Of a DNA stretch of 64,000 nucleotides, positions 8,589-43,589 are shown piece by piece. This stretch comes from Bacteroidales bacterium (lineage in GTDB: Bacteria; Bacteroidota; Bacteroidia; Bacteroidales; UBA932). Every line of letters begins with the position of its first letter. Within the stretch, counting starts at the first letter, position 1. The position numbers and the translations under genes are program-made. Below the pieces are notes generated by a model that saw nothing but the letters and a program-made list of their open reading frames with translations, did no database searches and was not told the DNA's origin. The stretch covers positions 1 to 64,000 of the forward strand of contig JAFRPW010000001.1 in NCBI GenBank assembly GCA_017428945.1, given 5' to 3'.

Positions 8589-8978
8589 ATGGACAAAATC
8601 AGAAATCTCGCGGATCTCCGCAAGATGAAGGAAGGTATGCAGTCCAGGATGTCGCTGCGTGAAAACAGCAACTCCGACGAGGCTATCATTCAAATCAAGG
8701 TCGGAATGGCCACCAGCGGTATCGCCTCGGGTGCAAAGGAAACCATGAACTATCTTATCACCGAGCTTGACAAGCGCCAGATCAAGGCTCTGGTCATGCA
8801 GGTAGGAGACATGGGCTACAGCTATGCAGAACCCACCGTAGAGGTAACCATTCCCGGAAAGGATCCCGTCGTGTTCGGAGACGTTAAAATCCCGCGTGCT
8901 CAGGAAATCATCGAAAAGTACATCGTCGGAGGTGAGCTTATCGAAGGCATCCTGCCCGCCAATTACAGATCCATCTAA
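8589..8978 (+). CDS. Cys-free thioredoxin-like hydrogenase accessory subunit (HydD/HndB-like)
   Basis: A 129-residue protein, first in the hydrogenase operon. A helical N-terminus with DLRKMKEGMQSR is followed by a thioredoxin-like ferredoxin fold (IIQIKVGMATSGIASGAKE, then QVGDMGYSYAEPTVEV, then IIEKYIVGGE). The same fold opens HydB. It corresponds to the HndB/HydD-type small proteins next to bifurcating hydrogenases. The family normally holds a [2Fe-2S] cluster in this fold, but this sequence contains no cysteine, so it cannot bind a Cys-ligated cluster. It may act as a structural or assembly subunit. The operon position and strong ribosome-binding site indicate it is expressed with HydBAC. 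Confidence 0.85.
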   Translation: MDKIRNLADLRKMKEGMQSRMSLRENSNSDEAIIQIKVGMATSGIASGAKETMNYLITELDKRQIKALVMQVGDMGYSYAEPTVEVTIPGKDPVVFGDVKIPRAQEIIEKYIVGGELIEGILPANYRSI

Positions 8979-9005
8979 AACCTTAACCACCCCAAAAGAG
9001 CGATT

Positions 9006-10799
9006 ATGGCAGTAAAAATGCATATTCTGGTATGCGGTGGAACAGGTTGTTCCGCATCCGCAAGCCACGAGATCATCGATCAGCTTAACAAGGAAATCGT
9101 GGCCCACGATCTCACCGATTTCGTAAAAGTGGTAGTCACCGGCTGCTTCGGTTTCTGCGAAAGAGGTCCCATCGTGAAAATCATCCCGGACAATACTTTC
9201 TACACCAGGGTGAAACCGTCCGACGCAAAGGAAATCATCGAGGAGCACATCATCAAGGGACGTAAGGTCCAGCGCCTCCTCTATGTTGCCCCGGACACCA
9301 ACAAGAGCGTTTCTGACTCCAAGCACATGGAGTTCTACAAGAAGCAGCTCAGGATTGCCCTCCGAAACTGCGGCTTCATCGATCCTGAGAATATTGAGGA
9401 ATCAATAGCCCGCGACGGCTATGCCGCCCTGGGCAAGTGCCTCACGGAGATGACCCCGGAACAGGTCATCGCGGAAATCAAGGCCTCCGGCCTCCGCGGA
9501 CGCGGCGGCGCAGGTTTCCCCACCGGCCTCAAATGGGAAATTGCAGCAAAGAGCCGTCCGGGCGAGCAGAAATACGTAGTCTGCAACGCCGACGAAGGAG
9601 ACCCCGGTGCATTCATGGACCGTTCCCTCCTGGAAGGCGACCCTCACTCAATCCTTGAAGCAATGGCCATCTGCGGCTACTGCATCGGCGCATCGAAGGG
9701 TCTCATCTACATCCGTGCAGAGTACCCTCTGGCAATCCACCGCCTGCAGGTTGCAATAGCCCAGGCAGAGGAATACGGCCTCCTTGGCAAGGACATCCTT
9801 GGAACCGGCTTCAACTTCGAGATAGAGCTCCGCTACGGTGCAGGCGCATTCGTCTGCGGTGAGGAAACCGCCCTCATCCACTCCATGGAAGGAAAACGCG
9901 GCGAACCCACCTTCAAACCCCCGTTCCCCGCTCAGTCCGGTTACCTTGGAAAGCCCACCAACGTGAACAACGTGGAGACCTACGCCAACATCCCCGTCAT
10001 CATCAACAAGGGCGCGGCATGGTTCTCCAGCATCGGCACTGAAAAGTCCAAGGGCACCAAGGTGTTCGCCCTGGCCGGCAAGATCAACAACGTAGGTCTC
10101 ATCGAGGTTCCCATGGGCATCACCCTGCGTGAGATCATCTACGAGATTGGCGGCGGCATCAAGGGAGGCAAGAAGTTCAAGGCCGTCCAGACCGGCGGTC
10201 CTTCCGGCGGCTGCCTCACGGAAAAACACCTTGACACCCCCATCGACTACGATTCCCTGGTAGCGGCCGGCTCCATGATGGGCTCCGGCGGCATGATCGT
10301 GATGGACGAGGACGACTGCATGGTTGCCATCGCCAAGTTCTACCTGGGCTTCACCGTAGACGAGTCCTGCGGCAAGTGCACACCCTGCCGCGTGGGCAAC
10401 AGGCGCCTCCTGGAAATCCTCACCAAGATTACGGACGGCAAGGGCACCATGGAAGACCTTGAGCAGCTCAAGAACCTCTCCCAGGTAATCAAGGACACCG
10501 CACTATGCGGCCTTGGCCAGACGTCCCCCAACCCTGTTCTCTCCACCATCAACAACTTCTGGGACGAGTACGTTGAGCACGTCGTGGACAAGAAGTGCCG
10601 CGCCGGCCAGTGCAAGGCCCTCAAGAAGTATGTGATAGATCCTGACAAGTGTAAAGGCTGTACCGCCTGCGCCAGGGCCTGCCCTGTGAGCGCCATCAGC
10701 GGCACCGTCAAGAACCCGCACGTCATCAACCAGCTTGACTGTATCAAGTGCGGCACCTGTATCGAGAAGTGTAAATTCGGTGCCATCAGTCTTAAATAA
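9006..10799 (+). CDS. hydB: Electron-bifurcating [FeFe] hydrogenase, flavin subunit HydB (NuoF-like)
   Basis: A 597-residue subunit that carries FMN and the NAD(P)H site and exchanges electrons between pyridine nucleotide, ferredoxin and HydA. The N-terminal thioredoxin-like [2Fe-2S] domain has C10, C15, C47 and C51. The NuoF core follows: GRGGAGFPTGLKW (nucleotide/FMN loop), NADEGDPGAFMDR and the iron-sulfur motif SCGKCTPCRVGNRR. The C-terminus holds two [4Fe-4S] motifs, CKGCTACARACP and CIKCGTCIEKC. Length matches the HydB/HndC family. It lies between the Cys-free accessory gene and HydA with short gaps, so it is in one operon. Confidence 0.95.
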   Translation: MAVKMHILVCGGTGCSASASHEIIDQLNKEIVAHDLTDFVKVVVTGCFGFCERGPIVKIIPDNTFYTRVKPSDAKEIIEEHIIKGRKVQRLLYVAPDTNKSVSDSKHMEFYKKQLRIALRNCGFIDPENIEESIARDGYAALGKCLTEMTPEQVIAEIKASGLRGRGGAGFPTGLKWEIAAKSRPGEQKYVVCNADEGDPGAFMDRSLLEGDPHSILEAMAICGYCIGASKGLIYIRAEYPLAIHRLQVAIAQAEEYGLLGKDILGTGFNFEIELRYGAGAFVCGEETALIHSMEGKRGEPTFKPPFPAQSGYLGKPTNVNNVETYANIPVIINKGAAWFSSIGTEKSKGTKVFALAGKINNVGLIEVPMGITLREIIYEIGGGIKGGKKFKAVQTGGPSGGCLTEKHLDTPIDYDSLVAAGSMMGSGGMIVMDEDDCMVAIAKFYLGFTVDESCGKCTPCRVGNRRLLEILTKITDGKGTMEDLEQLKNLSQVIKDTALCGLGQTSPNPVLSTINNFWDEYVEHVVDKKCRAGQCKALKKYVIDPDKCKGCTACARACPVSAISGTVKNPHVINQLDCIKCGTCIEKCKFGAISLK

Positions 10800-10813
10800 C
10801 GGAGGAACAGAAT

Positions 10814-12589
10814 ATGGATACTATCAAATTGACTATAGACAACAGAGAAGTGGAAGTGCCCAGGGGTACTACCATTCTTAAAGCTGCCGAGCAGATGGGT
10901 ATCAAGATTCCTACCCTCTGTCATTTCGAGCTTGACGGCCTTGCCCTCGAGAACCGCCCCGGCGGATGCCGCATCTGTGTGGTAGAGGTTGTAGGCCGCA
11001 GGAATCTTGCCCCCGCCTGCATCACCGAGTGCATGCCGGACATGGTCGTCAAGACCAACTCTTTCCGCGCCCTCAACGCCCGCAGGACCGTCCTTGAGCT
11101 CATGCTCTCCGACCACCCCAACGACTGCCTCCAGTGCCCCAAGAGCGGCAAGTGCGAGCTCCAGTCCCTGGCAGCGGACATGGGAATCCGCGAAATCCCC
11201 TTCAAGGGCCAGCAGTCCCAGTACCCCATAGAGCTCTCACCCTCTATCGTACGCGACTCCAACAAGTGCATCATGTGCCGCCGCTGCGAAAGCGTGTGCC
11301 ATGAGTACCAGAGCGTAGGCGCAATCGGCGCAGTGGACAGAGGCTTCCCGGCCGTTGTCAACACCGCGTTTGACGAGCCCCTGGTGAACACCAACTGCGT
11401 ATTCTGCGGCCAGTGCGTGGCAGTGTGCCCCACCGGCGCCCTGTCGGAGGTGGACAACACCGCAAAGGTGCTCCGCGACATTGCAAATCCCGATGTCAAG
11501 ACCTGCGTCCAGGTTGCTCCCGCAGTGCGCGTAGCCCTTGGCGAGGAATTCGGCCTGCCCGCCGGCAGCATCGTCACCGGCAAGATTGCAGCCGCCCTCA
11601 AGGCCATCGGCTTTGACTATGTGTTCGACACCGACTGGTCCGCCGACCTCACCATCATGGAGGAAGGCACGGAGGTCATCGGCCGTCTCAAGGCATTCCT
11701 CTCAGGGGACAAGAGCGTCAAGATTCCCGTCATGACCTCCTGCTGCCCCGCATGGGTGAATTTCTACGAGAAGTTCTATCCGGAGCTCCGCGAGTACCCG
11801 TCAACCGCAAAGTCTCCTCAGCAGATGTTCGGCGCAGTTGCAAAGACATATTTCGCAGACAAGATAGGCGTCACCCGCGACAAGCTGGTCTGCGTGTCCG
11901 TAATGCCTTGCGTTGCCAAGAAGTACGAGACCGAGCGTGAAGAATTCAAGGTGGACGGCACCCCCGATGTGGACTACTCCCTCACCACCCGCGAGCTTGC
12001 ACGCCTCATAAAGATCTGCAACATAGACTTCGCCAACCTCCCGGAGGCAGAGTTCGATTCTCCTCTTGGTGCATCCACCGGCGCAGCCGTCATCTTCGGC
12101 GTAACTGGCGGTGTCATGGAGGCTGCCCTGCGTACCGCAGTGGAGGTCCTCACCGGCAAGACACTTCCCAGGATAGACTTCGAAGAGGTCCGTGGCCTGG
12201 AAGGCATCCGCGAGGCCGTGGTTCCGGTTCCCGGAGTAGCAGACCTGAACGTTGCCGTAGTATATGGCCTCAAGAACGCGCGCACCATCATGGAGCAGAT
12301 AAAGGCAGGCACCTGCAAGTATCACTTCGTGGAGGTGATGGCATGCCCCGGCGGCTGTATCGACGGCGCCGGCCAGCCTTACCACCATGGAGACGCTTCC
12401 ATAGTGAAGGCACGCCACAAGGCCATTTACGAAGCAGACCGCAACATGCCCATCCGCAAGTCCCACGAGAACCCGGAGATCATCGCTATCTACAAGGAGT
12501 TCCTTGGACAGCCCTGCGGTGAGAAGTCCCATCACCTGCTTCACACTCATTACTTCGACAAGAAAATCAAGTTTGACATCGAAAAATAA
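10814..12589 (+). CDS. hydA: [FeFe] hydrogenase catalytic subunit HydA (trimeric, group A3-like)
   Basis: A 591-residue enzyme that interconverts protons and H2. An N-terminal [2Fe-2S] domain (from C36, then GGCRIC) is followed by the His-ligated cluster motif DHPNDCLQC and two [4Fe-4S] motifs, CIMCRRCESVC and CVFCGQCVAVCP. The H-cluster motifs are complete: TSCCPAW (about 307), MPCVAKKYE (about 365) and MACPGGC (about 508). The proton-relay cysteine is kept. A C-terminal small-subunit domain closes the protein. The operon order with HydB and HydC is that of NAD(P)-ferredoxin-dependent bifurcating hydrogenases. An AGGAG site precedes the ATG. Confidence 0.96.
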   Translation: MDTIKLTIDNREVEVPRGTTILKAAEQMGIKIPTLCHFELDGLALENRPGGCRICVVEVVGRRNLAPACITECMPDMVVKTNSFRALNARRTVLELMLSDHPNDCLQCPKSGKCELQSLAADMGIREIPFKGQQSQYPIELSPSIVRDSNKCIMCRRCESVCHEYQSVGAIGAVDRGFPAVVNTAFDEPLVNTNCVFCGQCVAVCPTGALSEVDNTAKVLRDIANPDVKTCVQVAPAVRVALGEEFGLPAGSIVTGKIAAALKAIGFDYVFDTDWSADLTIMEEGTEVIGRLKAFLSGDKSVKIPVMTSCCPAWVNFYEKFYPELREYPSTAKSPQQMFGAVAKTYFADKIGVTRDKLVCVSVMPCVAKKYETEREEFKVDGTPDVDYSLTTRELARLIKICNIDFANLPEAEFDSPLGASTGAAVIFGVTGGVMEAALRTAVEVLTGKTLPRIDFEEVRGLEGIREAVVPVPGVADLNVAVVYGLKNARTIMEQIKAGTCKYHFVEVMACPGGCIDGAGQPYHHGDASIVKARHKAIYEADRNMPIRKSHENPEIIAIYKEFLGQPCGEKSHHLLHTHYFDKKIKFDIEK

Positions 12590-12596
12590 TTAAGCC

Positions 12597-13082
12597 ATGT
12601 GTGGACCCCAGATAAAAATAAATGAAGCCAGCTACCGTACCATCAAGGACATCTGCGCTTCCTTCGATAACAAGCCGGGCGAACTCATCAACATCCTGCA
12701 CAAGACCCAGGAACACTTCGGATATCTTCCGGAAGAGGTCCAGCAGGTAGTTGCAGACTGCCTTGGAATCCCTGTGGGACGCGTTTACGGCGTTGTTTCC
12801 TTCTACAGCTTCTTCACCATGAAGCCCAAGGGCAAATATGCCATCTCCGTATGCCTTGGCACCGCTTGCTACGTCAAGGGTGCAGAGAAGATCCTGGACG
12901 CCCTCAAGAGCGAGCTCAAGATCTCCGAAGGCGGTGTCACAGAGGACGGCAAGTTCTCCCTGGACGTTCTCCGCTGCGTGGGCGCATGCGGCCTTGCCCC
13001 GGTCATGACCATCAACGGCAAGACCTACGGCCGCCTGGTTCCGGAGCACGTCAAGGAAATCCTTGCCGAATACGCGGACTGA
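12597..13082 (+). CDS. hydC: Bifurcating hydrogenase subunit HydC (NuoE-like)
   Basis: A 161-residue [2Fe-2S] protein of the NuoE/HndA family. A helical bundle (about 10-78, including VYGVVSFYSFF) precedes the thioredoxin-like domain, whose four ligands are C86 and C91 (CLGTAC) and C127 and C131 (CVGAC). It completes the HydABC trimer and relays electrons to or from HydB. It starts seven bases after the hydA stop. The next gene starts one base after its stop. Length and motifs are normal for the family. Confidence 0.95.
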   Translation: MCGPQIKINEASYRTIKDICASFDNKPGELINILHKTQEHFGYLPEEVQQVVADCLGIPVGRVYGVVSFYSFFTMKPKGKYAISVCLGTACYVKGAEKILDALKSELKISEGGVTEDGKFSLDVLRCVGACGLAPVMTINGKTYGRLVPEHVKEILAEYAD

Positions 13083-13083
13083 C

Positions 13084-13428
13084 ATGAAGATCAGTGAAAT
13101 TGCAAAACTTGTCGACGGGGTGCTTGTCGGGGCCCCCGTCGACGAGTTTTATGAGGTAGAGAAGGCTTTCGCATCGGACCTCATGAGCGACGTCCTGCGC
13201 TTCAACATGGACCAGACCGTGCTCATTACCGGCCTGTGTAACAACCAGACCATGCGCACCTGCGAGATGGCCGACATCCGCGTCATCCTCATGGGCCGCG
13301 ACAAACAGCCGGACCAGGACATGATAGACCTTGCCGTGGAGAACGATATCGTGATAATCAAGTCCAAATACAGCATCTTCAAACTTAGTGGCATCCTCTA
13401 CGGAGCCGGAATCCAGCCCCTGTACTAG
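13084..13428 (+). CDS. DRTGG-domain protein, first copy
   Basis: A 114-residue single-domain protein similar to the DRTGG domain (KISEIAKLVDG, then SDLMSDVL, then VLITGLCNNQTMRTCEMADI). DRTGG domains also occur with CBS domains and phosphotransacetylases, where they are thought to be ligand-binding. I start it at MKISEI, one base after the hydC stop. A paralogue lies at 15198, and both have the ASDL-SDV block. It opens the sensory cassette between hydC and the sensory hydrogenase. The ligand is unknown; a nucleotide or redox-linked small molecule is plausible but not shown. Confidence 0.8.
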   Translation: MKISEIAKLVDGVLVGAPVDEFYEVEKAFASDLMSDVLRFNMDQTVLITGLCNNQTMRTCEMADIRVILMGRDKQPDQDMIDLAVENDIVIIKSKYSIFKLSGILYGAGIQPLY

Positions 13429-13431
13429 CCT

Positions 13432-13845
13432 ATGCATTACACCTTCAAGATAGAGCGCGGCAACTTTACCGATGCCGGCCAGGCATCCAGCAGCGTCAAA
13501 CGCACGCTCAAGCAGCTTGGCGTTGACCCTGCCAACATAAAGCGCACCGTCGTCGCCCTCTTCGAGGCGGAAATCAACGCCGTGGCCCATGCCTACGGCG
13601 GAACCATAGACGTTGACATCGACGGAGAAAAGATTGTGATGGTGGTGGCCGATGAAGGCCCCGGCATCCCCAACATAGAGCTGGCCATGCAGGAAGGCTG
13701 GTCCACGGCTTCGGCAAAGGTCCGGGAAATGGGCTACGGTGCCGGCATGGGCCTTCCCAACATCAAGAAGAACACCGACGAGCTGAAGATAGACACCAAG
13801 GTGGGAGTGGGCACCACTGTCACCATGACCGTTAACCTGGCCTGA
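13432..13845 (+). CDS. Anti-sigma-factor-type ATPase (RsbW/SpoIIAB-like HATPase)
   Basis: A 137-residue GHKL ATPase domain protein. The N box is FEAEINAVAHAYGG, G1 is DEGPGIPN and G2 is GAGMGLPNIKKN. Such small serine kinases phosphorylate STAS-domain antagonists or bind regulators in partner-switching systems. No histidine-kinase dimerisation domain is present. It starts three bases after the DRTGG gene and four bases before the sensory hydrogenase, so the three are probably co-translated. A phosphatase of the matching type (SpoIIE, 19305-21482) is encoded on the facing strand of the island. No STAS-domain protein is seen in the window. Confidence 0.87.
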   Translation: MHYTFKIERGNFTDAGQASSSVKRTLKQLGVDPANIKRTVVALFEAEINAVAHAYGGTIDVDIDGEKIVMVVADEGPGIPNIELAMQEGWSTASAKVREMGYGAGMGLPNIKKNTDELKIDTKVGVGTTVTMTVNLA

Positions 13846-13849
13846 CCAT

Positions 13850-15193
13850 ATGCCTACCGGAGAGATATACTTCAAGCATTCCCTCAGGGTGAACGGCTAC
13901 CTCTGCAAGGGCTGCACCGCCTGTATGCGCACCTGTCCAACGGCCGCCATACGCATCCGTGAGGGCAAGGCCGTCATCAGCGAGAACAAGTGCGTGGACT
14001 GCGGCGAGTGCATCAAGGCGTGCCCGCACAAGGCAATATACATCAAGCAGGACGATTTTGGCCTTATAGAAAACTACAAGTACAGGGTATGCCTGGTTCC
14101 CACCACGTTCATAGGCCAGTTCGACACCAAGTACAAGACCAAGGCAATATACTCCTGCCTGATAAGACTCGGTTTTACACATATATATGAGGTAGAGCAC
14201 GAGGTGGCGCGCATGATGGAGCTCTACAACTTGTACATGGAGGCCCACCCGGAGATAAGGACGTTCATATCTCCGTACTGCCCTGCGGTGACCCGCCTCA
14301 TCCAGGTGCGGTTCCCTTCCCTTGTAGACAATGTAATCCACGTGAGGGCGCCCCTGGAGCTCGCATCCCGCGTAATTACCAAGAAACTGATTGACGAAGG
14401 CGCCAGGCCGGAGTCCATAGGCGTTTTCTATGTTACGCCGTGCGCGGCCAAGATTGCCGCCGTGAAGTATCCAGTTAGCGGAAAAGACACCTGCGTTGCG
14501 GGGGTGATAAACATGGATTTCCTCTACAACAAGGTGATGCTGATGCTCCACGACTCGGACAAGAACGCCCAGCCCATTAACCACACGCTGAATTCCCGCG
14601 ATGTCCAGTGGTCACTTGCCGGCGGCGAGGCGCCCCATTTCAAGGGGGCGCACTATGCCGTAGACGGCCTGCAGAATGTCCTCAATTTCCTTGAAAGGCT
14701 TGAGGACGAGGCCATCGACGCCCCGGGTCTTGTGGAAATGCGCATATGCGACCAGGGCTGCGTGGGCGGCGTCCTCACCACCCAGGACCGCTTTGTGGCC
14801 CGCAAGCGCCTGGAATACAGGGCCCGCCTGTTCGAGCGCCTGGAGCGAAGCAAGATACGCGAAACCCCGCCCGAGGACCACACCCTTACGCCGCAGTGGA
14901 TAAAGGACATGGAGATATCGGAAATAAAACCCCGCTCCATATACAAGCTCAACGACAACTATGCCGAGGCCTTCAAGATGGCCGAGCGCATGAAAAAGAT
15001 TGAAAAGGCCCTCCCGGGAGTGAACTGCAGCGCCTGCGGAGCCCCTTCCTGCGCCGCCCTGGCGGAAGATATCGTCCGCGGAGACGCCAGCGCAGATACC
15101 TGCGTTTTCATCAACCCCCTCTCCCAGACTTCGAAAGACGCCATGAAGCGCATCTGGGGAGACCGAATTAAAGACACCAATAAAGAAGACTGA
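13850..15193 (+). CDS. Sensory-type [FeFe]-hydrogenase-like protein (HydS, group C3-like)
   Basis: A 447-residue protein with two [4Fe-4S] motifs (C19/22/25/29 and C48/51/54/58), a reduced H-cluster domain and a C-terminal FeS domain of the CxxCGxxxC type (about 391-418). The four cysteine ligands of the H-cluster are kept: C144 in SPYCPAV, C198 in TPCAAK, and C300 and C304 in ICDQGC. The usual TSCCPxW motif reads SPYCPAV, so tyrosine replaces the proton-relay cysteine. Loss of that cysteine is known from HydS sensors, which turn over slowly. There is no PAS or kinase domain, and the neighbours are anti-sigma-type ATPases with a SpoIIE phosphatase nearby. That matches phosphatase-linked sensory (C3) hydrogenases. 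H2 sensing is inferred. Confidence 0.87.
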   Translation: MPTGEIYFKHSLRVNGYLCKGCTACMRTCPTAAIRIREGKAVISENKCVDCGECIKACPHKAIYIKQDDFGLIENYKYRVCLVPTTFIGQFDTKYKTKAIYSCLIRLGFTHIYEVEHEVARMMELYNLYMEAHPEIRTFISPYCPAVTRLIQVRFPSLVDNVIHVRAPLELASRVITKKLIDEGARPESIGVFYVTPCAAKIAAVKYPVSGKDTCVAGVINMDFLYNKVMLMLHDSDKNAQPINHTLNSRDVQWSLAGGEAPHFKGAHYAVDGLQNVLNFLERLEDEAIDAPGLVEMRICDQGCVGGVLTTQDRFVARKRLEYRARLFERLERSKIRETPPEDHTLTPQWIKDMEISEIKPRSIYKLNDNYAEAFKMAERMKKIEKALPGVNCSACGAPSCAALAEDIVRGDASADTCVFINPLSQTSKDAMKRIWGDRIKDTNKED

Positions 15194-15197
15194 TAAC

Positions 15198-15527
15198 ATG
15201 ACCCTGAAAGACATCATCGAAGAACTTGACCTCAAGTGCCTCAACCCCGTGAATCTGGACGCCGAAGTAAGCAGCGCTTACGCATCGGACCTTCTGAGCG
15301 ACGTCATGGGAAACGCCCGCAGCGGCCAGGTGTGGATTACCATGCAGACCCACAAGAACGTAACGGCAATTGCATCCCTGAAGGACATGCCGGCTGTAAT
15401 CATCGTCCGCGACGGTGTGCCTGACGACGACATGCTCCAGCACGCGAAGGATGAGGACATCTGCCTCCTGGTGAGCAAGGACGCCACCTTCGAGGTCTGC
15501 GGCAAGCTCTACGACCTCATAAAGTAA
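15198..15527 (+). CDS. DRTGG-domain protein, second copy
   Basis: A 109-residue paralogue of the protein at 13084. Shared blocks are AYASDLLSDVMG and the strand-turn VWITMQTHKNVTAIASLKD. The C-terminal half (VIIVRDGVPDDDMLQHAKDED) matches the first copy's region IDLAVENDIVIIKS in character. It follows the sensory hydrogenase by four bases and the PHP gene follows by one base. Two DRTGG proteins flanking the sensor suggest that they form a heterodimer or bind two ligands; this is speculation from position. Confidence 0.8.
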   Translation: MTLKDIIEELDLKCLNPVNLDAEVSSAYASDLLSDVMGNARSGQVWITMQTHKNVTAIASLKDMPAVIIVRDGVPDDDMLQHAKDEDICLLVSKDATFEVCGKLYDLIK

Positions 15528-15528
15528 G

Positions 15529-16263
15529 ATGAAGTTCAATGCCGATATGCACATCCACTCGGTGCTCTCCCCCTGCGGAGACATCGAGATGAGCCCTTCT
15601 GCCATAGTTGCCACGGCAAAGGCCCGCGGGATGGACATAATCGGCCTTACGGACCACAACTCCACCCTCAATGCGGACGTCACCCGGCGCCTGGGGGAAA
15701 AGGCCGGGCTGCACGTTCTCATGGGAGCGGAGGTCACCACCAAAGAGGAAGTCCACTGCCTGGCATTCATGCCCACGACGGAAAAACTGACCGAGTTCCA
15801 GGCGTTTCTGGACTCCAGGGTGATCTTCTTTGAGAACGATGTGGACAAGTTCGGCTACCAGCTGGTGGTGGACGAGGAGGAGAACGTGCTGGACCAGGTC
15901 CCTCACCTTCTCATAAACGCCCTGGACCTTCCCATGCTGGAACTCCAGCAGAAGGTGTACCAGATGGGCGGCATCTTTATCCCGGCCCACATAGACAGGC
16001 CCACGTTCAGCCTGAGCTCACAGCTGGGATTCGTGCCATCGGGCCTCAAGTACCATGCAATGGAGCTCAGCTACTACTGCAGGAAGGACGGATACAAGTT
16101 CCTGGAAACGCACCCATGGTTCAGCGACCTCAATTTCATCCAGAGCAGCGACGCCCACTACGTTGAGGACATTGCCAAGATACACAGCGTGCTGGAAATG
16201 CCTTATTTCAGCTTTGAGAATTTCAGAGACGCCCTCCGGCAGGGAGAGCCCGTTATACTATGA
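15529..16263 (+). CDS. PHP-domain metal-dependent phosphoesterase
   Basis: A 244-residue PHP-family protein. The metal-binding motifs are MHIHSVLSPCGD (residues 7-18), GLTDHNS (about 39-45), the mid-region GAEVTTKEE, HIDRP (about 153) and SSDAHY near the C-terminus. PHP enzymes cleave phosphoesters, including nucleotides such as pAp. In this cassette it may turn over a signalling nucleotide or phosphoprotein, but there is no direct evidence. It starts one base after the second DRTGG gene and its stop overlaps the ATG of the following ATPase gene (ATGA), showing tight coupling. Confidence 0.9.
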   Translation: MKFNADMHIHSVLSPCGDIEMSPSAIVATAKARGMDIIGLTDHNSTLNADVTRRLGEKAGLHVLMGAEVTTKEEVHCLAFMPTTEKLTEFQAFLDSRVIFFENDVDKFGYQLVVDEEENVLDQVPHLLINALDLPMLELQQKVYQMGGIFIPAHIDRPTFSLSSQLGFVPSGLKYHAMELSYYCRKDGYKFLETHPWFSDLNFIQSSDAHYVEDIAKIHSVLEMPYFSFENFRDALRQGEPVIL

Positions 16264-16793
16264 AAAGCCTGGATCTTCATATAATTGACATAACCCACAA
16301 CTCCATCCGCGCCGGAGCCACGGAGATTACCATAGAGATGGAAGACAGCGAGGCTAAGGACCTCCTGTCCATAAAGATTGTGGACAACGGCTGCGGAATG
16401 CCTGAGGAGATGATTGAGGCCATCAACAGCCGCTTCTACTCCTGCCGCAAGGAACGTAAAATCGGAATGGGGATAGCCCTCCTTAAGTTCCATTCCGAGC
16501 TTTGCAACGGCAAGTTCTACCTCAAGTCCAAGGTTGGAGTGGGCACGGAGATATACGCCTCCTACCAGCGTTCCCACATAGACCTCCAGCCCAAAGGAGA
16601 CCTTGCCGGCTGCTTTGCCAGCTTCATCTGCCAGTACCAGGATATCAACTTTATAATAAGGTATATAAAGGACGACGACACCTTCGAGCTCTCTACCACC
16701 GATGTCAAGGAAGTCTTCGAAGGGATGAACCTCAACAACCTGGAAATCATAAACAGCCTCACGGAGCTCATCCGTGAGAACATTGGCAGCTAA
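16260..16793 (+). CDS. HATPase-domain protein, second copy in the cassette
   Basis: A 177-residue protein with a GHKL ATPase fold: N box LHIIDITHNSIRAGATE, G1 DNGCGMPEE, G2 KIGMGIALLKFHSEL. It differs from the upstream 13432 protein in having a C-terminal extension of about 65 residues (from SYQRSHIDLQPKGDLAG). This arrangement is seen beside phosphatase-linked sensory hydrogenases. The start overlaps the PHP stop. Its 3' end overlaps the end of the convergent hydF by four bases, so the two operons of the island meet here. Kinase activity is not certain. Confidence 0.82.
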   Translation: MKSLDLHIIDITHNSIRAGATEITIEMEDSEAKDLLSIKIVDNGCGMPEEMIEAINSRFYSCRKERKIGMGIALLKFHSELCNGKFYLKSKVGVGTEIYASYQRSHIDLQPKGDLAGCFASFICQYQDINFIIRYIKDDDTFELSTTDVKEVFEGMNLNNLEIINSLTELIRENIGS

Positions 16794-17881
16794 GGCAGGG
16801 CAACCCTGTCCAGAATGCCCTGCAGGGCGGCTATGGCAATGCCGTAATTTGTGATTGGCACTCCGGCAAGGAGTGCTTTTCTTATGCGGGAGCGTACCAC
16901 TGCAGCGTTTGCCACACAGGCTCCGCAATGGATGATGAGACTGTACGGTGACAGATCTTCCGGGAAGTCGTTGCCTGCGGCTATGACAGCCTCAAGGTCA
17001 GGCACACGCCTGCGGAGCATAGCAGGGATCTTCACCCTTCCGATGTCCTCCGTATCCGGAACGTGGGTGCAAGCCTCCGCAATAAGGACCTTTGCACCCG
17101 GCTTCAAGGCATTGATTGCCTTTGCCCCGGCAACAAACACGTCAATATCGCCCTTTGCCGCCGCCAGAAGAATGGAGAACGATGTTAGAGTCCAGTCAGG
17201 AGGGATTGTCTCATTCACTCTCTTGAACACCTGAGAGTCTGTAATGACCAGCGCCGGAGCGCCTTTAAGGCCCGAGATGGTGCTTCCCAGGCTGTCCGGC
17301 GTGCAGCAAACAGGCGTACAGCCGCGGTCCAGCAGTTCCCTTATAACCTGCACCTGCGGCAGGATGAGCCTGCCCTTCGGAGCCTCGCTGTCCTGCGGCA
17401 TCACAAGCACCACAAGGTCCCCCTTGGTGACCAGACGGCCGGTCAGGAACTTCTCTTCCATCTTTGGGGCAACTGACGCAATACGTTGCAGCAGCGACTC
17501 CACACTCTCTCCCCTTGTATAAGTGACGCAAGGAATACCTGCAAGTGTGACTATCGTCCCAAAATCCGGGACGCGTCCCAATTTTTGGGACGATGAGATC
17601 ACTTCGGGGGCGACGACCAGGACGGCGATGTCGGTTTCGTCCAGGACGGCACGGGTGCGGCGTTCACGCTCCGGCCCGAGTACACCGTTGTCGTCAAGAC
17701 CTGCGGTATCTATAAGTACACAAGGGCCCAAGCCCGGAAGCTCTGCAAGCTTACGGACCGGGTCGGTAGTTGTACCCGGAACGGCACTCACAAGCGACAC
17801 CTCCTGGCCGCAAATGGCGTTTACCAGGGTGGATTTACCGCTGTTGGTGGCACCGAAGAATGCTATGTGAAGCCTTTCCAC
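16790..17881 (-). CDS. hydF: [FeFe] hydrogenase maturation GTPase HydF, GTPase domain missing G4
   Basis: A 363-residue scaffold that carries the diiron precursor to HydA. The P-loop is GATNSGKS (10-17), G3 is DTAGLDD and the HydF-specific block DLVVLVMPQDSEAPKGRLI is intact. The C-terminal cluster ligands are CTH (about 270) and HCGAC (about 318-322). The protein is shorter than usual (about 400 residues) because the segment holding the G4 NKxD guanine-specificity motif is absent. A peptide encoded by a palindromic element at 17553-17594 sits there instead. It starts four bases after the hydG stop, in one operon. Scaffold function is likely retained; GTP selectivity may not be. Confidence 0.92.
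   Translation of the reverse strand: MERLHIAFFGATNSGKSTLVNAICGQEVSLVSAVPGTTTDPVRKLAELPGLGPCVLIDTAGLDDNGVLGPERERRTRAVLDETDIAVLVVAPEVISSSQKLGRVPDFGTIVTLAGIPCVTYTRGESVESLLQRIASVAPKMEEKFLTGRLVTKGDLVVLVMPQDSEAPKGRLILPQVQVIRELLDRGCTPVCCTPDSLGSTISGLKGAPALVITDSQVFKRVNETIPPDWTLTSFSILLAAAKGDIDVFVAGAKAINALKPGAKVLIAEACTHVPDTEDIGRVKIPAMLRRRVPDLEAVIAAGNDFPEDLSPYSLIIHCGACVANAAVVRSRIRKALLAGVPITNYGIAIAALQGILDRVALP
17553..17594. repeat. 42-bp nested palindrome inside hydF
   Basis: Outer arms ATCGTCCCAAAA (17553-17564) and TTTTGGGACGAT (17583-17594) are a perfect 12-bp inverted repeat. The centre GGGACGCGTCCC (17568-17579) is itself a perfect 12-bp palindrome. It is read in frame within hydF, coding for the linker region around QKLGRVPDFGTIV. 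It looks like a small mobile palindromic element or a recombination scar. I saw no second copy in the window. Confidence 0.75.
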
Positions 17882-17885
17882 AGCC

Positions 17886-19301
17886 TTAGAACCTGAAGTC
17901 CCTCTCTCCGTTTTCTATGCGCTGGAGGCGGTCACGGGTTATTTCACGCGTCTTTTCCAGCGGGATGTCCAGAAGGCCCCTCTGGATGAGGGCCTCGCCT
18001 GCGGCACGGGTCTCGGGGGAAGCGTAGTCCATGAGGTACTCCTTGAGGGTCATGAGCGCGTTAGGCGTGCAGCAGAGGCTTATCTTGCCGCTCTTGCAAA
18101 GGCTCATGAAGCGGTCTCCGGTGCGGCCCTCGCGGTAGCAGGCGGTGCAGAACGAAGGGATATGGTCCTTCTCCAGCAGCCAGCGCACCACATCGTCAAG
18201 GGTACGGGTGTCCGACACGTCAAACTGGGCGGTCTCGTTGTGGCGCTCTACGGTGGTGTAGCCACCCACGCTGGTGCGCGAGCCGCCGCTTATCTGAGAG
18301 ATGCCGCAGTCCAGGAGCATGCCCCTCATCTTTGCCGATTCCCTGGTGGAAATGATCATTCCGGTATAGGGAACAGCAATACGGAGCACGGCCACCAGCT
18401 TGTGGAAGATGTTGTCCGGGAGGGCGTCCTTGAAGTCGTCAACGGAGATATCGTCCGCCGGGCAGATGCGCGGTACGGAAATGGTGTGGGGGCCCACTCC
18501 CCATACTGCCTCCAGATGCTCTGCGTGCATGAGGAGGCCTACAAGCTCGTACATGTAGCCGCTGAGGCCGAACAGGACGCCAATTCCCACGTCGTCGCAG
18601 CCGCCTTCCTGGGCGCGGTCCATGGCCTCAGTGTGCCAGTTGTAATTGCTCTTGGGGCCTGTAGGGTGAAGTTTCTGGTAGTTCTCCTTATTATAGGTTT
18701 CCTGAAACAGGATATATGTGCCGATGCCTGCGGCCTTGAGCTTTCGGAAGCTCTCAACGTCAGTTGCGGCGATGTTGATGTTCACCCTGCGGATGGAGTT
18801 TCCGCCTTCGTTTACGCTGTATATGGTCTTGATGGACTCGAGGATATACTCCAGCGGGTTGTTTACCGGGTCTTCTCCGGCTTCAACCGCAAGGCGCTTG
18901 TGGCCCATGCGTATAAGGGCGCGGACCTCCTGGGCTATTTCCTCCTGGGAGAGTTTCTTGCGGGGAATGGTGCGGTTCTTATAGTGGTAAGGGCAATATA
19001 CACAACCGTTTACGCAATAGTTGGAAAGGTACAGCGGGGCAAAAAGCACTATACGGTTGCCGTAGAACTTATGCTTTATTTCCTTTGCAAGGGCAAAGAG
19101 ACGGTCTTCCAGCGTGGGGTCCTCGCAGGCCATCAGGATTGCCGCTTCCCTATGGGTGAGCCCCTTGCAGAGAGCTCCTTTTTCAAGTATTGCCTCTACG
19201 CGAGCGTGGTTCTTTGACTCGCGGGAAGCCTCTTCAAGGCTTTCCAGGATTTCGTCATGATTTATGAAATCATCGGCGTGAGTTGACGAAGGATTGTACA
19301 T
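17886..19301 (-). CDS. hydG: [FeFe] hydrogenase maturase HydG (radical SAM tyrosine lyase)
   Basis: A 471-residue radical-SAM enzyme that cleaves tyrosine to p-cresol and supplies the CO and CN ligands of the H-cluster. The SAM cluster motif CX3CX2C is C96, C100 and C103 in YCVNGCVYC. The C-terminal auxiliary-cluster region is present as FCTACYREGRTGDRF and LCCTPNALMTL. HydG is distinguished from ThiH by this C-terminal CX2C extension. It starts three bases after the phosphatase stop and is followed at four bases by hydF, so the maturases and the phosphatase form one transcription unit. Confidence 0.95.
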   Translation of the reverse strand: MYNPSSTHADDFINHDEILESLEEASRESKNHARVEAILEKGALCKGLTHREAAILMACEDPTLEDRLFALAKEIKHKFYGNRIVLFAPLYLSNYCVNGCVYCPYHYKNRTIPRKKLSQEEIAQEVRALIRMGHKRLAVEAGEDPVNNPLEYILESIKTIYSVNEGGNSIRRVNINIAATDVESFRKLKAAGIGTYILFQETYNKENYQKLHPTGPKSNYNWHTEAMDRAQEGGCDDVGIGVLFGLSGYMYELVGLLMHAEHLEAVWGVGPHTISVPRICPADDISVDDFKDALPDNIFHKLVAVLRIAVPYTGMIISTRESAKMRGMLLDCGISQISGGSRTSVGGYTTVERHNETAQFDVSDTRTLDDVVRWLLEKDHIPSFCTACYREGRTGDRFMSLCKSGKISLCCTPNALMTLKEYLMDYASPETRAAGEALIQRGLLDIPLEKTREITRDRLQRIENGERDFRF

Positions 19302-19304
19302 TAA

Positions 19305-21482
19305 TTATAAGTGTTTTATCATAATAAGACGATTACGGCCGTTTTCCCGGCGGTACTCTATATCGTCCATAATCTTGCGTACCAGGAATATTCCAAGACC
19401 TCCTATGGGCCTTTCATCTGCCCCGAGGGTGATGTCCGCTTCCGGTGCAGTAGTGGGGTCGAAGGGCTGGCCATCGTCAGAGATCACAAACTGCAGGCAG
19501 TCTTCACGCATCTTTGCCTCTATGTCAATCTCCCCTTCCGTACCCTCCGGATATGCATACATCACAACGTTGGTCACGGCTTCCTCAAGGGCCAGGTTTA
19601 TACTGGTTGCCATGGCCGGATCCATGTTGCAGCCCTCTGCAACGGTGTCCATGAAGCCTTCCAGACGGGACAGTTCCTCCACCTTGTTCTTGAGCACAAG
19701 GTTATGAACCTTGCTCAGATAGTGGATAAACAGCATTGTGAGGTCGTCGCTCTGAGGGGCGTCGCCCACAAATTCGGAAACAGCCTCCTGCATGGCCTCA
19801 AGATGCCCCTGGGCGCTACGGCGGCAGGAAAGCACCTTGTCCATGCGCTCCTCTCCGAAGAGGTCGTGATTCATGTTCTCCGCCTCCGTGAGGCCGTCTG
19901 TATAGAGGAAGATTGCATCGTCATACTCCATCACGGTTTCCTGGTCCTGGTATTCCATTCCGTACATGATGCCAAGGGGAAGATTGGGATGCACGGGGAG
20001 GAAACTCTTATGGTCCGTGAGCATCATGGGCGCGTTGTGACCGGCGTTACTGTAGCGCAGACGCCCGGTTCCAAGGTCCAGGATACCGCAGAAGAACGTG
20101 ACGAACATATTGTTCTCGTTGGCCTCCGCCATCGAGTTGTTCATTGCCTCCAGAACCTTTGCAGGGCTGTCCTCATGGGCCGATTCCGCCCTGAACAGGC
20201 TCCTTGTCACCGCCATCACCAGGGAGGCGGGAACGCCCTTTCCGGAGACGTCTCCTATGCAGAAATAGAGTTTTTCGTCACGGATATAGAAATCGTACAG
20301 GTCTCCTCCCACTTCTTTTGCGGGGACGATGGCCGCAGACATGTCTATGTCTTTCCTCTCCGGGAAAGGAGGGAAAATCTTGGGGACCATGGCCATCTGG
20401 ATATTAGAGGCAATGTAGAGCTCGCTCTGCATCCTTTCCCTGGCGTCATTCATGTTCTTGTATTTGAGGAGACTCAGTATGACGCCACGGAGCAGAAGGA
20501 TAAGCATCAGAAGGCCAAGGATCTGGAGGATCGAGACCATGAAGCCCACCCTTTTTACGTTACCGTAAATATCGCTGTCAGGGACGATGATGGACATTGA
20601 CCAGCCGGTCCTTTCCACCGGGGCGAAGAAAACATGGTTCTTGGAGCCTTCGTAATTGAAGGATGCGCTTCCCTTCTTGCCGGAGAGCATGGCCCGGTTG
20701 ATGCCCTTCAGCGCCGCCGTGTCATCCAGCGTGGCGATAGCGTCGTCCACAGTCCTTCTCATCACAAGTGTTTCCGCAGGGCTCACCATTATCTTACCCT
20801 CGCGGCTTACCATCATGCTGAAGGCCGACGGATACACTTTCATGTTGCCCACAAGGTCCGTGAGCCATTCCAGGGAGATATCGGCGGTGAGGACGGCGGC
20901 GACGCGGCCGGAGAGGTCCTTGATGGGCAGGGAATAGGTGGTCATGAGCATGTCTCCGCCACCTTCGTCTATGTATGGCTCCGACCAGTAGCCTTCTCCG
21001 GTTTCCAGCGGCTTTCGGAACCATTCCTGGGAAGGGTAATCGTACTCCGCGGTGGCAAGGCTCTTAAGCGCAGTCTCTCCCGTTTCCGGATTCTTGAAGG
21101 TATATGGCGCAAACAAAGGTGCATTCTTGTAGTAACCGGGAACAACGGCAACCGTGGAGCCCACGATTACCGGATTACCGCTTACGACAAGCCTTGTGAC
21201 TGCGCCCAGGCTGTCCGGGTACTCCAGACACCAGCGGGCTATCCATTCGCTTCCGCGGACTGCGGTTTCCGCCTGATCTACAACGTTCAGGATACGGAGC
21301 TTGGTATTCTCCAGCTGACTCTCCGCCCTGAGGGTTGCTTCCTCGCGTATTGCCTTGCGGGAGAAGTAATACTGCACCAGCGCAGTCGCCTCCAGCGTAA
21401 GGGCGGCTATTATCACCACTAACAGACCGGCCCTTGCCGACTGCCTCAAAAGCGACTTGTCAAATACTTCCGTAACCTTCAT
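19305..21482 (-). CDS. Membrane SpoIIE-family phosphatase with Cache sensor and HATPase domain
   Basis: A 725-residue signalling protein. One membrane segment (about 18-40) and a second (about 316-340) enclose a periplasmic dCache-like sensor (about 45-310). The cytoplasmic PP2C/SpoIIE domain (about 365-580) has metal motifs EVGGDLYDF, GDVSGKGVPASL and YTDGLTEAEN. The C-terminal anti-sigma-type ATPase (about 595-725) has LALEEAVTNVVMYAY, DDGQPFDPT and GGLGIFLVRK. It therefore joins a phosphatase and a putative serine kinase in one chain. It is the first gene of the phosphatase-hydG-hydF operon and faces the sensory hydrogenase cassette. It probably acts on a STAS or similar target outside the window. 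Confidence 0.9.
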   Translation of the reverse strand: MKVTEVFDKSLLRQSARAGLLVVIIAALTLEATALVQYYFSRKAIREEATLRAESQLENTKLRILNVVDQAETAVRGSEWIARWCLEYPDSLGAVTRLVVSGNPVIVGSTVAVVPGYYKNAPLFAPYTFKNPETGETALKSLATAEYDYPSQEWFRKPLETGEGYWSEPYIDEGGGDMLMTTYSLPIKDLSGRVAAVLTADISLEWLTDLVGNMKVYPSAFSMMVSREGKIMVSPAETLVMRRTVDDAIATLDDTAALKGINRAMLSGKKGSASFNYEGSKNHVFFAPVERTGWSMSIIVPDSDIYGNVKRVGFMVSILQILGLLMLILLLRGVILSLLKYKNMNDARERMQSELYIASNIQMAMVPKIFPPFPERKDIDMSAAIVPAKEVGGDLYDFYIRDEKLYFCIGDVSGKGVPASLVMAVTRSLFRAESAHEDSPAKVLEAMNNSMAEANENNMFVTFFCGILDLGTGRLRYSNAGHNAPMMLTDHKSFLPVHPNLPLGIMYGMEYQDQETVMEYDDAIFLYTDGLTEAENMNHDLFGEERMDKVLSCRRSAQGHLEAMQEAVSEFVGDAPQSDDLTMLFIHYLSKVHNLVLKNKVEELSRLEGFMDTVAEGCNMDPAMATSINLALEEAVTNVVMYAYPEGTEGEIDIEAKMREDCLQFVISDDGQPFDPTTAPEADITLGADERPIGGLGIFLVRKIMDDIEYRRENGRNRLIMIKHL

Positions 21483-21720: not shown

Positions 21721-22026
21721 TCAGACCTTGATCTCAACCTCTACTCCGGAAGGAAGTTCCAGTTTCATCAGGGCGTCGACGGTCTTTGCATTGCTGTCGT
21801 CGATGTCGATGAGACGGACATAGGAGTCGAGTTCGAACTGCTCACGGCTCTTCTTGTTGACGAAGGTGGAGCGGTTCACAGTGAAGATCTTCTTGTTGGT
21901 GGGAAGAGGAATGGGACCTACAACCTTTGCACCCGTTGCCTTCACTGTATCTACGATCTTGACTGCGGACTTGTCCACGAGCATGTGATCGAAGGATTTA
22001 AGCTTGATTCTGATTTTCTGGCTCAT
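21721..22026 (-). CDS. rpsJ: 30S ribosomal protein S10
   Basis: A 101-residue S10 protein ([49 protein letters not shown]-type C-terminus). It binds 16S rRNA in the small subunit head. It is last in the str operon after fusA, the usual Bacteroidetes order. Normally rplC follows; here a tRNA gene and a signalling phosphatase follow, so the S10-spc ribosomal operon is not continuous at this site. Confidence 0.97.
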
Positions 22027-22057
22027 ATCACTAATACAATTTTTACTTTGCTAAATG

Positions 22058-24172
22058 TTACTCTTCGTCAAGGGGACGATATCCGCTCTTCTCCACGATT
22101 TCCTTTGCCAGGTTGGCAGGGACCTCTGCATAGTGGTCGAATGTCATGGTGCTGGTTGCTCGTCCGGAGGACAGCGTACGCAGCACTGTGACATAACCGA
22201 ACTGCTCCGAGAGCGGGACGTATGCCTTGACGATGCGTGCTCCATTGGCGGTGGAGTCCATGTTCACAATCTGGCCGCGACGGCGGTTGAGGTCTCCCAC
22301 GATGTCTCCCATGTACTCTTCCGGGGTCACCACCTCAAGGCTCATGATGGGCTCGAGGAGTACCGGATGGCACTTGGGGCAGGCATGGCGGAAAGCCATG
22401 CGGGCAGCGAGTTCGAAGGAGAGCTGGTCTGAATCCACGGGGTGGAAACTGCCGTCCAGAAGCTCCACTTTCAGGGAAGGAACCTCGTAGCCTGCCAAAA
22501 CACCGTTTGCCATAGCCGAGGCAAAACCCTTCTCCACTGAAGGGACGAACTCCTTGGGAACGTTGCCGCCTTTGACCGAATTGATGAACTGAAGACCCTG
22601 TACGCCTTCGTCGGCAGGAGAGATGTTCACTATGATGTCTGCGAACTTTCCGCGTCCGCCGGTCTGCTTCTTGAAGACCTCGCGGAGCTGGTATGCGGTG
22701 GTGATGGACTCCTTGTAATTGACCTGAGGTGCACCCTGGTTGATATCTACGCCGAACTCCCTGCGGAGACGGTCTACGATAATGTCCAGATGGAGTTCGC
22801 CCATACCGCTGATCACGGTCTGGCCGGTCTCCACATCGGACTTGACGGTGAAGGTGGGGTCTTCCTCCGCCAGCTTGGCGAGGGCGATTCCCAGCTTGTC
22901 AAGATCCTTCTGGGTCTTGGGCTCCACGGCGATTCCGATGACGGGATCCGGGAACTCCATGGTTTCGAGGGTGATGGGCTTGGATTCCTCGCACACGGTG
23001 TCTCCGGTGCGGAGGTCCTTGAAACCCACGGCTGCACAGATGTCTCCGGCCTCAACGAACTCGATGGGGTTCTGGTGGTTGGAGTGCATCTGATACAGGC
23101 GTGCAACACGCTCTTTCTTGCCCGTGCGGGTATTGTAGACGTAAGAACCGGCGTCCAGACGGCCGGAGTATGCCCTCATGAAGGCAAGACGACCCACGAA
23201 CGGATCCGTGGCAATCTTGAACACCAGGGCGCAGAACGGCTCTTCTGCGGCGGGCTTACGCTCAATTTCCTTACCTGTACGGGGGTCTGTTCCTGTGACC
23301 GATCCCTTGTCCAGAGGAGAAGGCAGATACCTCATGACGGCATCCAGGAGGAACTGTACGCCCTTGTTCTTGAACGATGATCCGCAGCATGCAGGGACAA
23401 TCTGCATGGAGATGCAGCCCTTGCGGATAGCTGCGATGATCTCATCGCGGGTAAGGGAGTCGGGATCCTCGAAATACTTCTCCATCAGGGTCTCATCGCA
23501 CTCGGCGGCTGCCTCCAGGAGGATGTCCCTCCAGCGGGCGGCCTCTCCCTTGAGCTCTGCGGGAATCTCGCCTTCATGGTAGTTGACGAGCTCCTCGGAG
23601 CTGTTGTAGAAGATGGCTTTCATGTCGATGAGGTCCACGATGCCCTCGAACTTGTCTTCGGCACCGATGGGGAGGCACACGGGAACTGCGGTGGCGCCAA
23701 GCTTGGTTTTGATCTCCTCTACGCATGCGAGGAAGTCTGCGCCAACGCGGTCCATCTTGTTCACATAGGCGATCTTAGGCACGCTGTACTTGTCTGCCTG
23801 GCGCCAGACAGTCTCTGACTGAGGCTGAACACGGCCGACCGCGCAGAAAGTTGCCACCGTGCCGTCCAGGACGCGCAGGCTTCTCTCTACCTCTACGGTA
23901 AAGTCTACGTGACCGGGAGTGTCGATAAGGTTGATCTGGTAGGTTTCTCCGTTGTAGTGCCAGAAAGCGGTGGTTGCGGCAGAAGTAATGGTGATACCCC
24001 TCTCCTGCTCCTGTACCATCCAGTCCATAGTGGCAGCTCCCTCGTGAACCTCACCAATCTTATGGGTTTTCCCGGTGTAGTAGAGGATGCGCTCCGACGT
24101 GGTGGTCTTACCGGCATCGATGTGGGCCATGATGCCGATGTTGCGTGTGTATTTAAGATCTCTCTTTGCCAT
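22058..24172 (-). CDS. fusA: Translation elongation factor G
   Basis: A 704-residue translocase GTPase. G1 is [20 protein letters not shown]3 is DTPGHVDF and G4 is [10 protein letters not shown]. Domain II carries [14 protein letters not shown] and the C-terminal domains contain [18 protein letters not shown]. It moves tRNA and mRNA through the ribosome. It lies between rpsG and rpsJ with short gaps, in the str operon. Full length and no unusual features. Confidence 0.98.
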
Positions 24173-24188
24173 TTAGCATGCAGATGGT

Positions 24189-24665: not shown

Positions 24666-24699
24666 TTTGAAAAAATGTTAAAGGTGAAAAAATAGGTGA

Positions 24700-25083: not shown

Positions 25084-25151
25084 AAATGTTTGTTAATAAA
25101 TAATTTAAGTTACTTCCACTTCTGTGCGTCTTATGTCCGCGCAAAAATGGG

Positions 25152-25182
25152 TTGCAAAGGTACGAAAAAAATATTATATTCG
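25152..25182 (+). promoter_or_regulatory. Promoter of the DUF3298 lipoprotein operon
   Basis: TTG (25152-25154) precedes TATATTCG (25175-25182) by 20 bases. The ATG at 25187 lies only four bases beyond the box, so the transcript would be leaderless or nearly so. It overlaps the divergent rpsL promoter completely. Confidence 0.5.
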
Positions 25183-25187
25183 CAAAA
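25155..25187 (-). promoter_or_regulatory. Promoter of the str operon
   Basis: On the minus strand TTTTG (25183-25187) precedes TACCTTTG (25155-25162) by 20 bases, an excellent Bacteroidetes promoter. Transcription would begin near 25148 and give a leader of about 65 bases before rpsL. Confidence 0.7.
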
Positions 25188-38970: not shown

Positions 38971-38982
38971 ACGGACAGGATT

Positions 38983-43585: not shown

Positions 43586-43589
43586 GAGT

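Follow-up and report, generated by a model that had tools for sequence, protein, structure and literature searches.

A conserved six-gene cassette with a group D-type [FeFe] hydrogenase accompanies one type of HydABC in Bacteroidales and may control it

The 64,000-nucleotide stretch of Bacteroidales DNA analysed here (the window) carries, directly 3' of the hydrogenase genes for HydB-HydA-HydC, a run of six + strand genes at 13084-16793 (DRTGG1-HATPase1-HydS-DRTGG2-PHP-HATPase2) in which a second [FeFe] hydrogenase, HydS, is accompanied by five small proteins. We find that this cassette keeps its gene order across much of the window's taxonomic order and is tied to one type of HydA, and we see an even chance that it is a self-contained, ATP-dependent control module, responsive to H2 or redox state, for the HydABC of the same genome. 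The genes concerned are:

8589-8978, + strand: thioredoxin-like protein of the hyd operon, without cysteines (no Pfam match; a member of the hyd set in relatives)
9006-10799, + strand: HydB (Pfam)
10814-12589, + strand: HydA, a group A [FeFe] hydrogenase of the type found together with the cassette (NCBIfam NF040763, 862 bits against a cut-off of 765)
12597-13082, + strand: HydC (Pfam)
13084-13428, + strand: DRTGG1 (DR1), cassette gene 1 (weak Pfam DRTGG match, 17.6 bits against a cut-off of 25.2)
13432-13845, + strand: HATPase1 (HAT1), a SpoIIAB/RsbW-like ATPase or kinase (spIIAB, 58 bits, under the equivalog cut-off of 135)
13850-15193, + strand: HydS, a group D-type [FeFe] hydrogenase of 447 residues with no PAS domain (Pfam, motifs, tree)
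15198-15527, + strand: DRTGG2 (DR2), a relative of DRTGG1 (Pfam Hpr_kinase_N, 24.6 bits against a cut-off of 24)
15529-16263, + strand: PHP, a probable metallo-phosphoesterase with its presumed metal ligands kept (family scans, alignment)
16260-16793, + strand: HATPase2 (HAT2), a second GHKL ATPase with Asp for Glu at the base position (Pfam, alignment)

The start of DRTGG1 was set at the ATG at 13084, as in relatives, and not at the TTG at 13063 of the open frame. HydA, HydB and HydC of the electron-bifurcating type, with their iron-sulphur (Fe-S) and flavin mononucleotide domains, were all found by Pfam and NCBIfam; the best NCBIfam model for HydA is named NADH-dependent, group A6, and bifurcation itself is putative here.

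Conservation was assessed in a survey of 198 genomes from the window's order. A short HydS, meaning a best match of the cassette type at E ~1e-54 or lower, occurs in 58 of them (split or fragmentary in G005 and G177) and the PHP gene in 60, spread over 43 family labels; 55 genomes have both (Fisher p about 4e-39, shared descent uncorrected). These counts, like those given below for HydA and STAS, come from hand-compiled match lists, and their statistics ignore shared descent. Gene order was read from 56 order-drawn loci (one for each short-HydS genome, the window itself and G177 left out) and from 80 named loci, two sets that overlap in genomes; with four neighbourhoods around a longer form of HydS (L095-L098) they make up 140 neighbourhoods, some on short contigs. 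All six genes stand in order in 40 of the 50 order-drawn loci with enough flank, and in 61 of 69 among the named loci. Co-occurrence of the cassette genes in other genomes, which the preliminary description of this DNA had set as a test able to refute it, is therefore strong, and its claim that HydS is tied to HydABC and to the small HATPases is borne out by the 55 genomes with HydS and PHP and by the retained six-gene order.

The exceptions are themselves informative about the construction of the cassette, which is made of two three-gene halves that are separable but retained in the same genome. Only DRTGG1-HATPase1-HydS is found in four order-drawn loci (L053, L060, L080, L089), the second half being on a different contig; the halves lie on different contigs in G120, G132, G148 and G183, yet both are kept, and in G001 they stand ~26 kb apart on one contig (L090, L192). 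The halves are swapped in L077, DRTGG2 or HATPase2 was not called in L079, L085 and L091, and in L093 and L094 DRTGG is fused to the HATPase and PHP is missing. Eight named loci also depart from the order (L099, L118, L119, L121, L145, L163, where the halves are swapped, L167 and L170). Genes beside some half-cassettes resemble housekeeping genes by their N-termini, and not targets. Beyond these sets, a Parabacteroides distasonis record holds all six genes, with no hydrogenase operon in the stretch shown, which makes the cassette testable by gene removal, and a Subdoligranulum record (Bacillota) holds a divergent set. A PADLOC search of DRTGG2, PHP, HATPase1 and HATPase2 returned no match for any of the four proteins, and a defence-system reading of them was set aside on that result.

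The association with HydABC is specific to one HydA type. Window-type HydA (E < 1e-240) is present in 74 of the 198 genomes and in 57 of the 60 with PHP; of the 51 genomes whose HydA is solely of the other type, only one has PHP. Two of the three remaining PHP genomes (G050, G089) still have fdlike-hydB beside the cassette. Of 32 order-drawn loci with sequence on both flanks, six (L040, L041, L043, L069, L082, L088) lack HydB and HydA in the vicinity of the cassette, but their genomes (G081, G185, G034, G073, G105 and G003) all have window-type HydA elsewhere, so that the link holds even when the cassette stands alone. Position is variable: of the 35 order-drawn six-gene loci that have 7 kb or more of sequence, 27 hold HydB or HydA on the downstream side, and hyd genes lie upstream in 13 of 35. 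The upstream genes can be of the other type, with window-type HydA then downstream (e.g. G097, G024, G080); in the window it is the window-type set that stands upstream.

In the genus of the window genome (G000), none of the eight other genomes has a cassette HydS at E <= 1e-40, although one of them, G008, has window-type HydA. Gain, loss or a misplaced contig are possible explanations.

HydS fits the group D [FeFe] hydrogenases, to judge by its motifs and relatives, and not the phosphatase-linked group C3 to which it had initially been assigned. Its H-cluster cysteines (C144, C198, C300, C304) are present in 141 of 141 sequences, and each of the N-terminal cysteines C19/22/25/29/48/51/54/58 (two [4Fe-4S] sites) and of the C-terminal C393/396/401/418 in at least 139. 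The latter are spaced as Cx2Cx4Cx16C, the pattern published by Land et al. for groups C and D (PMC8163306; here and below, citations refer to the passages used of each paper). No PAS domain was found in HydS by Pfam at E <= 0.01, and since the Fe-S match ends at residue 420 of 447, leaving only 27 residues, there is no room for one. At positions matched by motif, T196 (the CpI M353 position) is Thr in 134 and Ser in 7 of 141 sequences, and residue 143 (the CpI C299 position) is Phe in 101 and Tyr in 40, never Cys. E260, E296 and D272, kept in 139, 141 and 139 of 141, may correspond, by motif spacing only, to the group D proton path (PMC10407848) of E252, E289 and D265 in the numbering of TamHydS, the group D (M2e) enzyme of Thermoanaerobacter mathranii.

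TamHydS resembles the cassette HydS in lacking PAS, in the C-terminal Cx2Cx4Cx16C motif, in a non-Cys residue at the C299 position and Ser or Thr at M353, and in a gene neighbourhood that includes a trimeric group A hydrogenase and an ATPase resembling histidine kinases (PMC8163306; PMC3608648). It differs in having Leu at the M497 position, where the cassette HydS has Arg in 139 of 141 sequences, a position poorly conserved in groups C and D (PMC8163306), and in the AraC regulator reported at its locus, of which the cassette has none; the passages used on the TamHydS locus do not mention DRTGG or PHP genes.

Group C3, represented by HydS of R. albus and by HfsB-HfsC of Thermoanaerobacterium, likewise has, within a hydrogenase locus, a hydrogenase of putative sensory role accompanied by a signalling protein of the Ser/Thr type (PMC5707799, PMC11837493). 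We reject this label for the window's HydS on the grounds of length and motif, the neighbouring gene and the tree. In R. albus, hydS shares 8 bases with an overlapping SpoIIE gene, whereas directly 3' of the window's hydS stands DRTGG2 and not SpoIIE, in contrast also to L071. The tree has 36 rows, among them 18 short and 11 long HydS (the long ones and R. albus cut to their first 430 residues, HydA sequences to residues 131-525, and the Subdoligranulum row excluded by a score filter). In it the 18 short HydS form one clade (100/100) and R. albus HydS joins the long HydS (98/88) with the window's HydS outside, the tool giving a long-branch warning. Long HydS of Bacteroidales in L071, L083, L085, L095, L133, L166 and L176 adjoin an open reading frame (ORF) of 394-400 residues; only that of L071 was scanned with Pfam, and it is SpoIIE over the cut-off. 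PAS is reported in print for the C3 type, but the one long HydS of this kind that was scanned (L071) gave no Pfam match to it; the long HydS of L096 and L098 carry a histidine-kinase tail. These C3-like HydS-SpoIIE pairs stand as separate genes beside the cassette in L071 and L176, and by sequence the phrase 'phosphatase-linked C3' describes a gene other than the cassette HydS.

The five small proteins, too, have near-invariant sites. DRTGG1 and DRTGG2, despite their weak Pfam scores, each match 103-104 neighbourhood ORFs in profile searches, from which their kinship also comes, and both contain the motif SDLxSDV, with Ser42 of DRTGG1 in 141 of 142 rows and Ser34 of DRTGG2 in 125 of 125. In HATPase1, E45, N49, D74, G76, G78, G103 and G105 are invariant in 138 of 138 rows, which amounts to the full motif set of the SpoIIAB/RsbW type (N-box Glu and Asn, DxGxG and GxGxGL). 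HATPase2 likewise retains the ATP-binding motifs, but in 128 of 128 rows Asp replaces the usual Glu. PHP residues H8, H10, D42, H43, E68, H76, H154, D208 and H210, which we take to be the metal ligands as in other PHP proteins, are kept in 135-137 of 137 rows and Cys16 in 135, the remaining two being gaps; on this pattern PHP is probably an active metallo-phosphoesterase. Its nearest named families (TrlF, nucleoside bisphosphate phosphatase and CehA types) all score far below cut-off. Comparison with solved structures matched PHP only to distant PHP-type proteins and HATPase2 only to histidine kinases and MutL/PMS2 types, and gave nothing credible for DRTGG1.

Fusions point to a direct partnership within the first half. 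DRTGG and HATPase are fused in one frame in G069 and G145, and a search with the fused protein (E <= 1e-35; 5 of 345 genomes of the class matched, all of the window's order) crosses the stop between DRTGG1 and HATPase1 in the window, G029 and G105. From these fusions and the match across the stop, HATPase1 and DRTGG1 probably touch.

How might such a module work? By analogy with group D biochemistry, HydS would sense H2 or redox state at its H-cluster. A sensory role for group D has been proposed (PMC8163306, PMC10407848, PMC13104023), and the single group D enzyme studied has low H2 evolution, a Km for H2 lower than that of groups A and C, and a C-terminal cluster without redox response to H2 (PMC10407848, PMC13104023); given this last property, a conformational signal seems likelier than electron transfer through the C-terminal cluster of HydS. 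The signal would be passed by contact to HATPase1, with DRTGG1 as its main partner, the two forming a first switching pair, and DRTGG2, PHP and HATPase2 would make up a second half, resetting the state or passing it on, with PHP perhaps dephosphorylating a protein or small molecule. The final target would be HydABC, through its activity, assembly or expression.

A more specific version, which we regard as unlikely, is a partner switch without STAS and PP2C, in which DRTGG would replace STAS as the partner, and perhaps phospho-acceptor, of a SpoIIAB-like HATPase, PHP would replace PP2C, and a group D hydrogenase would give the H2 input. The conserved SDLxSDV in both DRTGG genes and the natural DRTGG-HATPase fusions suggest it. 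HATPase1 shares its ATPase motif set with the SpoIIAB/SpoIIAA and RsbW/RsbV switches, but unlike them the cassette has neither STAS nor PP2C genes by Pfam. A small-molecule loop tuned by HydS or redox state, in which PHP would make or destroy a phosphorylated nucleotide or metabolite for the DRTGG domains to bind, is distinctly unlikely: it would suit the nearest PHP families, remote as they are, and the occurrence of DRTGG domains in ligand-binding regulatory regions of other enzymes, but Pfam found no nucleotide cyclase or synthetase domain in the cassette.

Several observations weigh against a HydS-driven control module for HydABC. In four loci (L194, L195, L197 and L198, in G032, G089, G146 and G149) the other five genes stand as DRTGG1-HATPase1-DRTGG2-PHP-HATPase2, and no HydS separates HATPase1 from DRTGG2. 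A long HydS is present in G032 and G146, and in G089 next to HydABC; G149 has no HydS match at E <= 1e-20. Short HydS is also lacking from a fifth genome with PHP, G071, where the PHP gene lies at the end of a contig. HydS is thus not indispensable, but an input that can be lost or exchanged, and where it is missing the other five proteins presumably take their input elsewhere. The fusion loci of G069 and G145 are divergent (HydS 25-26% identical to the window's), have no PHP and occur with only the other HydA type. PHP is absent from 17 of the 74 genomes with window-type HydA, including G008 of the window's genus; HydABC can thus occur without the cassette. The Asp of HATPase2 means that it may not be a kinase, and Pfam detected neither a DNA-binding nor a receiver domain in the six proteins.

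The HydS-less loci also bear on another explanation, namely that the five other genes encode assembly, repair or activity factors of HydABC and that HydS is an auxiliary redox protein and not a sensor. Cassettes persist without HydS, and three of the four are followed directly by fdlike-hydB-hydA-hydC (the fourth, L194, stops close to HATPase2, and hyd genes of the other type and a gene that is Rex-like by sequence reading precede it); the frequent downstream position of HydB or HydA, a HATPase2 relative between hydC and hydB in the Subdoligranulum record, and the maturase genes that adjoin the cassette in rumen relatives (HydF opposite HydS in 16 of the 80 named loci, HydG in 15) would all suit such factors. 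The 17 genomes with the same HydA type and no PHP, however, argue otherwise, as do the cluster ligands and group D-type substitutions that HydS keeps and the low activity of the studied group D enzyme (PMC10407848), and we hold this explanation to be somewhat unlikely. The control module remains our preferred reading.

On the opposite strand, converging on HATPase2, lie three further genes:

16790-17881, - strand: HydF maturase, convergent with HATPase2 (NCBIfam/Pfam scans)
17886-19301, - strand: HydG maturase (NCBIfam/Pfam scans)
19305-21482, - strand: Cache-SpoIIE-HATPase phosphatase with a C-terminal HATPase, judged not to be part of the cassette (domain scan)

Open frames and domain scans confirm the gene set, order and coordinates on both strands as first described, and 'two facing operons' is a fair name for the map, with internal gaps of at most 27 bases in each set. 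HydE is encoded on a separate contig (C44:8044-9048, 348 bits against a cut-off of 254.6), so with HydF and HydG in the window all three H-cluster maturases are present in the genome.

The preliminary description had placed the SpoIIE phosphatase at the centre of its mechanism: HydS, the two small ATPases and the phosphatase would together determine whether a STAS protein, itself in control of a sigma factor, is phosphorylated. The SpoIIE gene does end only 3 bp before hydG, so that co-transcription is possible; SpoIIE and STAS each pass the Pfam cut-off in a single protein of the window genome; and SpoIIE occurs in 53 of the 58 short-HydS genomes against 148 of 198 overall (p 3e-4), an overlap beyond chance that C3 pairs and descent may explain. 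Yet no relative of the window's SpoIIE-HATPase was found among 4,523 ORFs of 60 neighbourhoods or 6,015 ORFs of the other 80; thirteen of these 140 neighbourhoods share the convergent hydG and have 7 kb or more of sequence downstream of HydS. Scanning the 10,538 ORFs of the 140 neighbourhoods with a SpoIIE domain profile gave 10 matches, nine of them 394-396 residues long (the length of the C3 partner) and one of 416 (L076); this profile missed one of three positive controls (L071), and divergent SpoIIE genes may escape it. Twenty-six further loci added a 394-residue match beside a long HydS (L197) and, near HydC, a match of 1139 residues (in the HydS-less locus L198 of G149). The latter stands two genes from HydC, in favour of the model, but has another architecture than the window protein.

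What SpoIIE genes of this order do commonly adjoin is STAS, which lies within 2.5 kb of at least 17 of the 29 best-scoring SpoIIE places, the window's own included; in a wider set, 29 of 42 have STAS nearby, but 13 of the 42 were chosen for STAS on their contigs. G081 (L254) has the order HATPase, Cache-HAMP-SpoIIE, STAS, RelA/SpoT, and G101 (L256) Cache-HAMP-SpoIIE-HATPase then STAS. These switches have the domain kinds of the window gene at 19305-21482, with the HATPase a separate gene in G081 and fused in G101 as in the window, but they adjoin STAS (in G081 also RelA/SpoT) and not hydrogenase genes. The sole STAS protein over cut-off in the window genome is likewise encoded on contig C44 (region 22741-26028, L002), after RelA/SpoT and HD-domain genes. 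With no relatives in the 140 neighbourhoods, the STAS-adjacent SpoIIE places and this context, the window's phosphatase most likely belongs to a separate STAS- and RelA/SpoT-linked switch and is probably a chance neighbour; we reject it as a cassette part on the same evidence, and the model built on it is highly improbable. STAS as the output is weakened too, and not a necessary one, though it may still serve where a STAS exists: no match at E <= 0.001 was found in 11 of the 60 PHP genomes. The grouping first proposed therefore stands for HydB-HydA-HydC with the six cassette genes, and not for the SpoIIE phosphatase. On C44, the STAS gene also precedes an APH-like phosphotransferase gene and is ~15 kb from hydE.

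Part of this arrangement is already in print. In Thermoanaerobacter genomes, a histidine kinase gene and a group D-like hydrogenase gene are reported upstream of bifurcating genes (PMC3608648), and a group D HydS, a HATPase and HydABC as neighbours are accordingly not new. We found no literature joining the PHP domain, DRTGG and hydrogenase, although many subscription papers fell outside the search and the absence is unproven. Our data name five small proteins that are inherited with HydS and tie the set to one HydABC type. The signal route of PAS-less group D hydrogenases has been raised as an open question (PMC8163306), and a partner switch free of STAS and PP2C, if true, would answer how they pass their signal. 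On our reading, experiments on this locus would be misled by the adjacent phosphatase. The cassette is also carried by rumen Bacteroidales. H2 partial pressure sets the fermentation balance in the rumen.

Other features of the window deserve brief mention. In the thioredoxin-like gene at 8589-8978, two of the three conserved Cys columns hold Ser/Asp in 27 of 102 rows and the third holds Ser in 18; by sequence comparison its cysteines have been lost in the window's branch. The SpoIIE-hydG-hydF set follows, on the same strand, str operon genes at 21721-25083 (rpsL, rpsG, fusA and rpsJ, - strand; S12, S7 and S10 by Pfam, fusA by eye), and stands where rplC would be, the usual gene after rpsJ in that ribosomal operon; the operon seems to be broken here. 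Runs of large genes at 35617-49056 and 54111-58817 resemble SusC/SusD-type outer-membrane pairs, judged from N-termini, and two small overlapping ORFs at 50595-51267 resemble, by eye, a nucleotidyltransferase/HEPN-type pair.

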